64,000 bases of DNA, from positions 46,718 to 110,717 of the forward strand of contig JALIHJ010000065.1 of the NCBI GenBank assembly GCA_022984795.1. Reading direction: 5' to 3'. Below are positions 34,623 to 60,414 of the stretch, in pieces. The first letter of the stretch is position 1. Every line of letters starts with the position of its first letter. Under the pieces are notes generated by a model. That model was not told where the DNA came from, made no database searches, and was given only the letters and a program-made list of their open reading frames with translations. Source of the DNA: Fabrea salina. Its lineage: Eukaryota; Ciliophora; Heterotrichea; Heterotrichida; Fabreidae. Both the position numbers and the translations under genes were made by a program.

Positions 34623-34694
34623 TCCGAGGTAGTATAGTGGTGAGTATTCCAGCCTGTCACGTTGGAGACCCGGGTTCAATTCCCGGCCTCGGAG
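34623..34694 (+). tRNA. tRNA-Asp (GTC), copy 1
   Basis: 72 bases. Acceptor stem TCCGAGG pairs with CCTCGGA, G discriminator. Anticodon stem CCAGC/GTTGG with loop CTGTCAC, anticodon GTC (Asp). T arm with GGTTCAATTCC. No intron. Six Ts at 34695-34700 serve as Pol III terminator. Identical to copy 2 at 36167. Confidence 0.95.
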
Positions 34695-36166: not shown

Positions 36167-36238
36167 TCCGAGGTAGTATAGTGGTGAGTATTCCAGCCTG
36201 TCACGTTGGAGACCCGGGTTCAATTCCCGGCCTCGGAG
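36167..36238 (+). tRNA. tRNA-Asp (GTC), copy 2
   Basis: Identical 72-base copy of the tRNA at 34623, including flanking CATCC on the left, with a five-T terminator. Anticodon GTC. Separated from copy 1 by the TPR gene. Confidence 0.95.
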
Positions 36239-57758: not shown

Positions 57759-58706
57759 ATGGCAGGAGTGCTTTTCAAACTATCTGTGTGTGCATTCTAC
57801 GGAGTGTCTTCAGCTGGTTTGAGCTTTATCAACAAAGTAGTGTTTAGTGTGTACAACTACCCACACCCCTTATTTGTAAAGCTAACTTAGGTGCTTTTGT
57901 TCCAGTTCATCTTCAACATAGCTATTACTTTGGCAGTCAAAGATTTTTTGCCCTACTTGTCTAAAGGTCTTTGGAAAGCCCCTAAGTTGTCTACTGCTAA
58001 CGCTAAGACTTGTGCAAGACTAAGTTTTACCTTTTTGCTGAACGTGCTTAGTGGAATGATTGCTTTGACCAAAGTTAACATTCCTATGTTTTTGGCTATA
58101 AGAAGACTTGCTAGTTTAGCTATACTGCTGAACAACGCTTTGTTTTTAGGCAAACAAACAAGTAGGACAGAGGTCTTTGCAGTAAGCTTGATTTCAGTTG
58201 GGGCTTTGATTGCAGGTGCTAACGACTTGAATGCTGACTTTATAGGGTACTTCTTCATTATTCTCAACAATGTTTTTACAGCTATTCACTTCCAACTTGT
58301 GAAGGCTGAGTCTGAAAAAAACCCTGAACTAGACGCAGCCTCCCAGTCCTTTTACGTGTCTTTGCTGACTATTCCAGCTCTTTTACTGATGTGTTTTTTC
58401 TTTGAGGACCCAAGTGTGCTCCAAATGTATGACAAACAACAAGGGTTCTTGTTTTACTTTGTGCTGTCTGCTGTGATGGGCTGTGTGCTTACTTTTTCAC
58501 AGAACTTGTGCACTATGGTTAACTCTCCACTAGCCACTTCTATCACTGGGAACGTAAAAGACGTTGCTTCTACCTTGCTTGGCTTGCTGTTGTTCCCTGA
58601 CGTCCACATTAACTTGTGGCTGTGTGTAGGTTTAGTTATTAGTTTGAATGGAGCAATGGTTTACTCTTACTCTAGACTCAAAGAACAACTAGACAAAAAC
58701 AAGTAA
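57759..58706 (+). CDS. Nucleotide-sugar transporter (SLC35D-like)
   Basis: 310 aa with about ten spans after removing the 15-base intron 57876-57890. It begins MAGVLFKLSVCAFYGVSSAGLSFINK, like the start of SLC35D/GDP-mannose (VRG4-type) transporters. It includes LLFQFIFNIAIT, IPMFLAIRRLASLAILL and ATSITGNVKDVASTLLGLL, which match the conserved blocks of the GDP-mannose/UDP-GlcA (SLC35D) group. Likely Golgi import of a nucleotide sugar; substrate not decided. Exon 1 has 39 codons. Confidence 0.85.
57876..57890 (+). other. 15-base intron in nucleotide-sugar transporter
   Basis: GTAAAGCTAACTTAG, phase 0. It has an in-frame TAG at its end. A at position 10. Confidence 0.87.
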
Positions 58707-58707
58707 C

Positions 58708-59577
58708 TTATCTAAAAAGTAACGAAGGCAGCTCTTCAGAGTTTACTTCTTCGACTTCCCATACGCCTGACCTCACTTCTCCGTCTAACTGAAGAGCACC
58801 CCAGCTAGAAATTCCTTGGAAGTCTACTTTTCGAAGACCTTCTCTAGGTTCCCTGCCTCCCAAGGCCAGGTGCTCGCTAACTGGAGTGGACCCTTCGAGG
58901 CCCACGTCTTCGTGTAGCGTGAATGTTCTGGACATCTCAACAGGGCCGCCTATTCTGATTTCAGAAGTGCTTCCTTGCACGTTTAGTCTTTTGTTAATTA
59001 CAAATCCTTCTGCACCGTTGACTGAGTACTTAGTTATCAAGACTTTGCTTCCATTGAAGATGCCTGATGAGATCCTAGGAGTGGCCTTTAGCAGGACTCC
59101 AGTTCTCAAGTTATTTACAGGGGCTCCAAAGCGTATAAGGGAAACCCTTACAGATCCGTCAATGAGTAAAAACCCTGGTCTGAGTCCGGTGTATAAACAA
59201 AACCCTCCTAAAACTAACACCACTAAAAGTATGGACTGCAACAGGGGCAGCCAAGCAAACCCCAACAAAAAGAAACCCAAAAGTAGAACTATAGAAGTCT
59301 TTTTGTCTTTAAGCAGTAAAAGCAAGGGGGCAGAGAAGTACACTAGTTGGTGCTTGGTTTTGAGTTTTTGGTTGTAGGGCTTTTTGCACACTTTGCAGGT
59401 CATTAAGTCCGTTCTACTGTAAGTCTGCGGAAAAGTAACTAAGTTTCTGAATTGAGTAGATCGCCACTTTTCCAGGCAAGAACTATGGACGTACTTCTGG
59501 CTCCCAGCGCAGCCACAAGGAGCTATTAGTTTGCTTTGGGAGTCTTCTTCAAAGCATATTCGGCAAGTTTCTTTCAT
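58708..59577 (-). CDS. RING-CH ligase fused to a YqgE/AlgH-like (DUF179) domain
   Basis: 289 aa. Residues 5-64 make a complete RING-CH finger: C5, C8, C21, C23, H31, C34, C61, C64. Then two or more spans (about 76-135: LLLLLKDKKTSIVLLLGFFLLG). Residues about 158-289 resemble the bacterial YqgE/AlgH (UPF0301) fold: GVLLKATPRISS, GFVINKRL (GLVINRPL in YqgE), RIGGPV, RTFTLHE and SSWGALQLDGEV with GVWEVEE near the end. I know of no other RING-CH protein joined to this domain. The domain is usually bacterial or plastid/mitochondrial; its function is not known. Confidence 0.85.
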   Translation of the reverse strand: MKETCRICFEEDSQSKLIAPCGCAGSQKYVHSSCLEKWRSTQFRNLVTFPQTYSRTDLMTCKVCKKPYNQKLKTKHQLVYFSAPLLLLLKDKKTSIVLLLGFFLLGFAWLPLLQSILLVVLVLGGFCLYTGLRPGFLLIDGSVRVSLIRFGAPVNNLRTGVLLKATPRISSGIFNGSKVLITKYSVNGAEGFVINKRLNVQGSTSEIRIGGPVEMSRTFTLHEDVGLEGSTPVSEHLALGGREPREGLRKVDFQGISSWGALQLDGEVRSGVWEVEEVNSEELPSLLFR

Positions 59578-59586
59578 TTATACATG
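59575..59586. promoter_or_regulatory. Divergent start-codon junction, 6-base spacer
   Basis: CAT-TTATAC-ATG. Minus start 59577 and plus start 59584. An A/T box lies between. Role as promoter is inference. Confidence 0.5.
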
Positions 59587-60414
59587 TGCATTACTGCAGT
59601 AGCAATTGACTCCCACGAAACCTACCCCTTTGTTATGGTGTTTAACAGAGACGAAACCTTTGAAAGGCCCACTGAAAGCATGCACGAGTGGACAGAAGAA
59701 ATGGAAGGCATCATTGCAGGGAAGGACGCTTACGGAGGAGGGACTTGGCTTGGAGTGAGTAAGGGCGGAAACTACTCTTGCGTTACTAACTTTTGGGAAG
59801 GAGGAGACTTACAAGCTGAGTTCTACAGTTGTCCAAGTCAGCCTATAGGCAACTCTGAAGGTTACTTAACTAGAGGAGTGCTTCCTCTCAGAGTGCTGAA
59901 AGCCAGCAGTGTTGAGTCTGAACTCAGTCAGATTTGGGAAAACAAACACAGGTACAAAAGCTTTAACATGCTGGCAGGCAACGTTAAAGGGGAGCATTTT
60001 TATTTTTCTGTGAACAGAAAAACCCAGTGCGATGGAGTGCAAAGACTTAATTCAGGCATTCACTGTGTGTCAAACATTGAACTTAATGGGTACTGGACTA
60101 AAATCCAAGAAATGCGGAAGAACTTAGAGAACTTCCTAACTTCTAAGCCAATCTTTGAGCCCCAAGAACTGTTTTGCTTATTAGAAGACAACAGAAAGTT
60201 TGGCTTTGTCAGGGAAAACACTGATACAGAAAGCTCTATTTTCGTATCGCCTTACAAAAAAACTGTGTTTGGGGATTTATCCACAATAGCTACAGTGAGT
60301 TCTACAGTGATTACTCTGGACAAAAACTCAACTATGAACGTAATAGAAAAAACCTGGGAAAAAGACCACACCAACTACTCAGTCAAAGAGTTTTCATTCC
60401 AAGTTCCTAATTAA
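59584..60414 (+). CDS. TANGO2: TANGO2-like (NRDE family) protein
   Basis: 276 aa. ATG 59584 begins MCITAVAIDSHETYPFVMVFNRDETFERPT, the family start with the Cys2 and the NRDE motif. It continues with GTWLGVSKGGNYSCVTNFW and ends VIEKTWEKDHTN. TANGO2 proteins are Ntn-hydrolase-like folds acting in mitochondria, ER/Golgi and heme/lipid homeostasis. An upstream in-frame non-ATG extension from 59536 would lie inside the divergent gene and is rejected. PPP1R11 follows after 3 bases. Confidence 0.9.
   Translation: MCITAVAIDSHETYPFVMVFNRDETFERPTESMHEWTEEMEGIIAGKDAYGGGTWLGVSKGGNYSCVTNFWEGGDLQAEFYSCPSQPIGNSEGYLTRGVLPLRVLKASSVESELSQIWENKHRYKSFNMLAGNVKGEHFYFSVNRKTQCDGVQRLNSGIHCVSNIELNGYWTKIQEMRKNLENFLTSKPIFEPQELFCLLEDNRKFGFVRENTDTESSIFVSPYKKTVFGDLSTIATVSSTVITLDKNSTMNVIEKTWEKDHTNYSVKEFSFQVPN

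Follow-up and report, generated by a model that had tools for sequence, protein, structure and literature searches.

Gene organization around the fusion gene

We analyzed 64,000 nt of the Fabrea salina contig JALIHJ010000065.1 (hereafter the window), which contains a gene whose product combines a RING-CH domain, a hydrophobic stretch, and a YqgE/AlgH (DUF179, UPF0301) domain (Table 1). The fusion was seen as one copy in one contig. Its frame has no internal stop and carries both domain halves, and an in-frame TAA directly precedes the ATG, so that the start cannot be moved upstream.

Table 1. The fusion gene, its encoded domains, and its two neighbors (positions are those of the window)
Feature	Position	Strand	Description
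Fusion gene	58708..59577	-	289 aa, single open frame from ATG to TAA; RING-CH, predicted hydrophobic anchor, DUF179
RING-CH (RINGv) domain, residues 5-64	59386..59565	-	Pfam PF12906; PDB matches; eight ligands
Uncharged hydrophobic stretch, residues 94-132	59182..59298	-	Kyte-Doolittle; model helices; probably a two-pass membrane hairpin
YqgE/AlgH (DUF179, UPF0301) domain, residues 167-281	58735..59079	-	PF02622; HMM and shuffles; hhalign; fold match of the guided model
Triose-phosphate/nucleotide-sugar type transporter	57759..58706	+	Convergent; second exon matches Pfam TPT, E 3.1e-10
TANGO2-family gene	59584..60414	+	Divergent; Pfam TANGO2, E 4.6e-46

The stop codon of the fusion gene lies 1 nt from that of the transporter gene, and its ATG lies 6 nt from that of the TANGO2-family gene; with packing this extreme, a promoter for either of these two divergent genes would have to overlap coding sequence. 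Many intergenic gaps in the window are as short as 0-20 nt, and because gene density is so high, the neighborhood says little about the function of the fusion. The window genes are eukaryotic and include, besides TANGO2, genes for a cyclic-nucleotide-binding ion channel, PP2C, Vps26, Hus1, poly(A) polymerase, an Rbx1-type RING-H2 protein, and a cytosolic-type uL15. Codon usage scores for 18 other genes of the window ran from -0.892 to -1.163. The RING part (-1.026) and, at the edge, the DUF179 part (-1.162) fell inside this span, whereas the hydrophobic segment (residues 76-135), which is short, fell under it at -1.265. In third-position G+C, none of the three parts lay outside the values of these 18 genes. 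On the whole, therefore, codon usage and third-position G+C argue against a recently acquired foreign piece or a chimera.

The transporter gene contains a 15-nt intron (GTAAAGCTAACTTAG, positions 57876-57890), removal of which eliminates an in-frame TAG and leaves one continuous frame. It is the sole intron demonstrated in the window, where its exact motif occurs once, and matches to it with up to three mismatches showed no clear excess (8 against 4.9 expected). The accessible text on the heterotrich Blepharisma reports introns of 15 and 16 nt together with short intergenic regions, and an A+T content of 66% (PMC9942806). The 15-nt intron and the dense packing of the window would therefore suit a heterotrich-like ciliate. 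Its G+C content, which at 39-47% by 2-kb blocks is higher than that of Blepharisma, and its uL15, whose closest match is not the chain 4v8p (a Tetrahymena structure), fit this less well. Stretches of 15 and 16 nt bounded by GT and AG also occur in the coding sequence of the fusion gene, yet its frame is already open, so that no intron is needed; a hidden-intron artefact was thus rejected.

Two further features of the window lie outside this neighborhood. At 34623-34694 and 36167-36238, about 1.5 kb from each other, lie two genes for tRNA-Asp (GTC) whose Rfam scores are identical. In addition, a single frame at 45261-47273 matches cytochrome b5, FAD_binding_6, cytochrome b561, and, under its cut-off, DOMON, and may encode a membrane redox fusion.

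The N-terminal RING-CH domain

The Pfam RINGv model matched the N-terminus with an E value of 2.6e-13 and 50.3 bits (curated cut-off, 21.6). A PHD finger was rejected: PHD_NSD, which we take to be a finger of similar ligand order (PHD fingers are presumably also C4HC3), reached 14.2 bits, under its cut-off of 23.9 and against the 50.3 of RINGv. The other Pfam zinc-finger matches, zf-RING_2 among them, were all under their own cut-offs. Among PDB sequences, the closest to the N-terminus were 2d8s, DOA10 (2m6m and 8pd0), and ORF K3 (1vyx); 2d8s, titled 'cellular modulator of immune recognition', is presumably a MARCH protein. By sequence match, the solved structures most closely related to this region are thus those of RING-CH proteins, among which DOA10 is an ERAD ligase. 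All eight ligands claimed in the earlier note are present, in the order C5, C8, C21, C23, H31, C34, C61, and C64, that is, in the C4HC3 arrangement with Cys fourth and His fifth by which RING-CH is defined (PMC4021871). The RING was modeled with low confidence (pLDDT mostly below 50) in both AlphaFold models, guided and unguided, described below, and its assignment rests on the sequence evidence.

Like MARCH, Doa10 (TEB4), and K3-type ligases, the fusion protein has an N-terminal C4HC3 RING-CH domain and, after it, a hydrophobic segment that probably inserts into a membrane; it differs from them in that its C-terminus is a DUF179 domain. Two-pass MARCH proteins carry putative PDZ-binding motifs at the C-terminus (PMC4021871, as far as its available text goes); the fusion protein ends in LFR, which is neither a type I nor a type II motif.

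The C-terminal YqgE/AlgH domain

DUF179 is small and is best known in bacterial and plastid proteins. YqgE/AlgH is widespread: in a sample of 60 genomes from a single bacterial phylum we found it in 59, and among 14 named control genomes in 5. A significant match of the C-terminal part of the fusion protein to PF02622 had been set beforehand as the test of its assignment to this family, and Pfam gave such a match with an E value of 9.7e-12 and 45.6 bits against a cut-off of 27, covering profile positions 1-137 of 157. The GFVINKRL, GGPV, and WGALQLDGEV blocks pointed out in the earlier note are present and align with bacterial YqgE.

An independent HMM was built from 27 bacterial YqgE proteins, without the window sequence. 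Residues 136-289 scored 38.9 bits with this model (E 6.1e-11 in a set of 2003), and the whole protein scored 35.2; these scores are sums of pieces, the best single stretch giving 19.2 bits for the C-terminal part and 25.1 bits for the whole protein. The best of 2000 shuffled sequences scored 6.4 bits, and, when the window was read in all six frames, no other open stretch scored above 3.4 bits. With hhalign, residues 136-289 matched 12 bacterial proteins with a probability of 97.1% and 28% identity over 120 columns. Six YqgE models of NCBIfam also matched (E up to 4.4e-05), at scores far below their equivalog cut-offs (best, 36.2 bits against 254). Among PDB sequences, UPF0301-type entries were weak matches to the C-terminal half, the best being 2ew0 (E 0.034).

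The earlier note had suggested structure prediction of this part. An unguided AlphaFold model was uninformative (mean pLDDT, 43; 22-35 by blocks of ten residues in the DUF179 part). A second model was guided by an alignment of 10 bacterial and viral-contig YqgE rows and had a pLDDT of 55-89 by blocks of ten from residue 151 on. In a Foldseek search, ranks 1 to 7 of the guided model were all AlgH-type structures (2ew0, 2haf, 2aj2, 2mui, 2gs5, 2gzo, and 2hrx; E 9.1e-06 to 2.0e-03), with modest TM-scores by target of 0.44-0.52 and rmsd values of 5.6-10.5; nothing else in the PDB reached an E value of 0.1. Of these, 2aj2, 2gzo, and 2mui are named UPF0301, and we assume that 2ew0, 2haf, 2gs5, and 2hrx belong to the same AlgH/UPF0301 family. 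Because the guiding alignment contained YqgE, the fold match is not independent evidence. Taken together, Pfam, NCBIfam, the 27-protein HMM, and hhalign, along with the guided-model fold within this limit, support the reading of the protein as RING-CH plus YqgE/AlgH with which the earlier note began.

A shortened domain with a conserved core

The C-terminus of the fusion protein shares with bacterial YqgE/AlgH a conserved core and, in the alignment-guided model, an overall resemblance. By its alignment, it is a shortened version of the bacterial domain: 27 aligned bacterial members are 173-205 aa long by the start-codon rule, whereas the domain in the fusion is about 130 aa and lies within a putative ligase. 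It has lost the tail, a segment ahead of the GxxxW block, and most of what separates VINK from GGPV; these stretches probably hold helices in the bacterial proteins, and with their loss a bacterial binding site could be gone, which counts against the docking role proposed below.

Of 20 near-invariant columns (one residue shared by 9 or all 10 of the comparison rows), 15 are kept. The five exceptions are S171 in place of D, K178 in place of V, E206 in place of P, L262 in place of G, and the loss of the tail W. One bacterial relative of the DUF179 part, from a Coxiellaceae metagenome-assembled genome (28% identity), was obtained by a scan of genome contigs; 27 columns were invariant in 12 bacterial rows, and 17 after this sequence and the fusion had been added (14 rows).

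YqgE/DUF179 genes were also observed on 14 IMG/VR contigs classed as viral (L033-L046), some of which could be misclassified host DNA. Three YqgE proteins from viral contigs matched no PHROGs family at E 0.001, and comparison of ten viral-contig proteins, three of them YqgE, with PHROGs gave no functional hint. On L046, the gene next to YqgE matches phrog_6880, a translation elongation factor. No relative of the whole fusion or of its RING part alone was confirmed in the viral contigs.

The hydrophobic segment and membrane topology

Residues 94-132 form an uncharged stretch of 39 residues in which Kyte-Doolittle windows reach a mean hydropathy of 2.43, and both flanks are net basic (K90, D91, K92, and K93 before it; R133, D140, R144, and R149 after it). 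From these properties the segment is predicted to anchor the protein in a membrane. The membrane spans proposed in the earlier note are therefore retained as a hydrophobic, predicted membrane segment, but as one uncharged stretch that could form a hairpin or a single long helix. Since 39 residues correspond to about two passes and both flanks are basic, we favor a hairpin with the RING and DUF179 domains both in the cytosol; such a topology, as in two-pass MARCH proteins, would be the most likely one.

It is quite unlikely that the segment crosses the membrane once, which would leave the RING in the cytosol and DUF179 in the lumen or outside, where it might receive misfolded proteins or external signals. 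Both AlphaFold models draw one continuous helix (residues 92-130 in the guided and 92-129 in the unguided model), as a single crossing would have it; however, neither contained homologues over this segment, and the one-helix models would thus be weak evidence against a hairpin. The 39 uncharged residues also exceed the length of one pass, and the basic charge on both flanks speaks against a single crossing. A precedent for a secretory DUF179 is offered by Arabidopsis DUF179-2, which has a predicted signal peptide; thioredoxin/PDI-type domains are listed in the legend to the figure that includes its family (PMC8889267). We assume that these domains are those of DUF179-2.

DUF179 proteins in plants

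DUF179/YqgE has been described as a domain without known function (PMC12075407), and the earlier note had said the same; this agrees with the description, but a context in the CLP system had already been printed (PMC8889267). According to the accessible part of that paper, the Arabidopsis plastid proteins DUF179-1 and DUF179-3 associate with CLPC1, a chaperone of the CLP protease: DUF179-1 is an abundant, trapping-independent interactor, and DUF179-3 was enriched 4.6-fold with the CLPC1 trap and falls in a coexpression module enriched for degradation by ubiquitin and autophagy. Its authors suggest that proteins of this group could act as adaptors or anti-adaptors; the coexpression link between the DUF179 family and the CLP core network is only a weak one. 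The same paper describes two lineages of the UVR1 family, one with a UVR domain and the other with an F-box, which provides a precedent for a domain family that takes part in both organelle and ubiquitin proteolysis. The ligase-linked copy would give DUF179 a context, as the earlier note had anticipated; as a proteolysis context, it would come second, after plastid DUF179 and CLPC1 (PMC8889267).

DUF179-1 and DUF179-3 resemble the fusion in placing DUF179 in a proteolysis setting, a likeness by description and not by sequence; they differ in being CLP-associated proteins of the plastid stroma for which the available text mentions no RING (PMC8889267). DUF179-2 (AT3G19780) is, like the fusion, a eukaryotic DUF179 protein; in the same text, it has no reported RING, is not a CLPC1 interactor, and may lie outside the plastid. 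The identifiers of DUF179-1 and DUF179-2 differ within the paper, being AT1G32160 and AT1G48450 in the text and AT1G33780 and AT3G19780 in Table 2 and the name list.

Possible function of the fusion protein

We tentatively propose, in a reading that may well prove wrong, that the fusion protein is an E3 ubiquitin ligase of the RING-CH type, anchored in a membrane like MARCH and Doa10 and equipped with a cytosolic DUF179 domain that docks clients. As in other members of its family, the N-terminal RING-CH would bind a charged E2, and residues 94-132 would be the membrane anchor, most likely a hairpin, with the two ends of the protein on the cytosolic side. The shortened DUF179 beside the RING could then serve for docking, by binding clients or a partner that carries them and so presenting them to the E2, and the RING-CH ligase would pass ubiquitin from the E2 onto the clients so brought. 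E3 activity, topology, and docking are all putative roles in this scheme. Docking is proposed by analogy, because plastid DUF179 proteins associate with CLPC1; the same link may also be counted against it, since what it offers is a physical association, in another compartment, with DUF179-2 not among the interactors and little coexpression with the CLP network (PMC8889267).

It is somewhat unlikely, though worth serious consideration, that DUF179 is instead a regulatory or oligomerizing module, or a sensor of a small ligand or of redox state, that switches the ligase, with clients being recognized by the membrane segment. Many MARCH ligases recognize their clients in the membrane, and DUF179 is not known to bind clients; the conserved core of the domain is compatible with such a role. 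However, the accessible literature gave us no ligand or regulatory activity of DUF179 beyond names like 'putative transcriptional regulator', and what has been reported from plants points instead to binding with a protease chaperone (PMC8889267).

That DUF179 is a degenerate passenger from a chance fusion, and that the ligase works without it, is highly unlikely. The missing inter-block stretches and C-terminal tail, the five changed or lost columns, and a codon usage at the low end of the window range all fit such a passenger. Against it, 15 of the 20 near-invariant columns are kept in an intact frame; drift after loss of function would be expected to strike these core columns too, although a single sequence is no proof of selection. 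A gene-calling or assembly artefact is hardly credible, since, even if neighbors only 0-20 nt apart could be confused and the middle segment has an outlying codon usage, that segment is short and leucine-rich, no stop separates the two halves of one shared frame, the values of the 18 genes span those of the RING and DUF179 parts in codon usage and of all three parts in third-position G+C, and the neighbors enclose the gene at 1 and 6 nt.

Returning to the docking reading, a wider and rather improbable extension of it would be that DUF179/YqgE is a general degradation module that binds clients or adaptors, in the plastid CLP system and perhaps in bacteria, and that it has here been wired into the ubiquitin system. 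In a literature search that covered few subscription papers, DUF179 and RING-CH never occurred in one paper, nor did DUF179 together with 'E3 ubiquitin ligase' and 'RING', and no title or abstract opening among the results listed by wider searches described such a fusion; a protein database may already contain the architecture without comment.

As a Rosetta-stone clue, the fusion of DUF179 to a putative ligase is in line with the reported association of plastid DUF179 with a protease chaperone. Together, the fusion and the plastid association suggest a concrete hypothesis, namely that DUF179 helps to select proteins for degradation, and the fusion would be of greater interest if orthologues exist and if its DUF179 part binds degradation clients.
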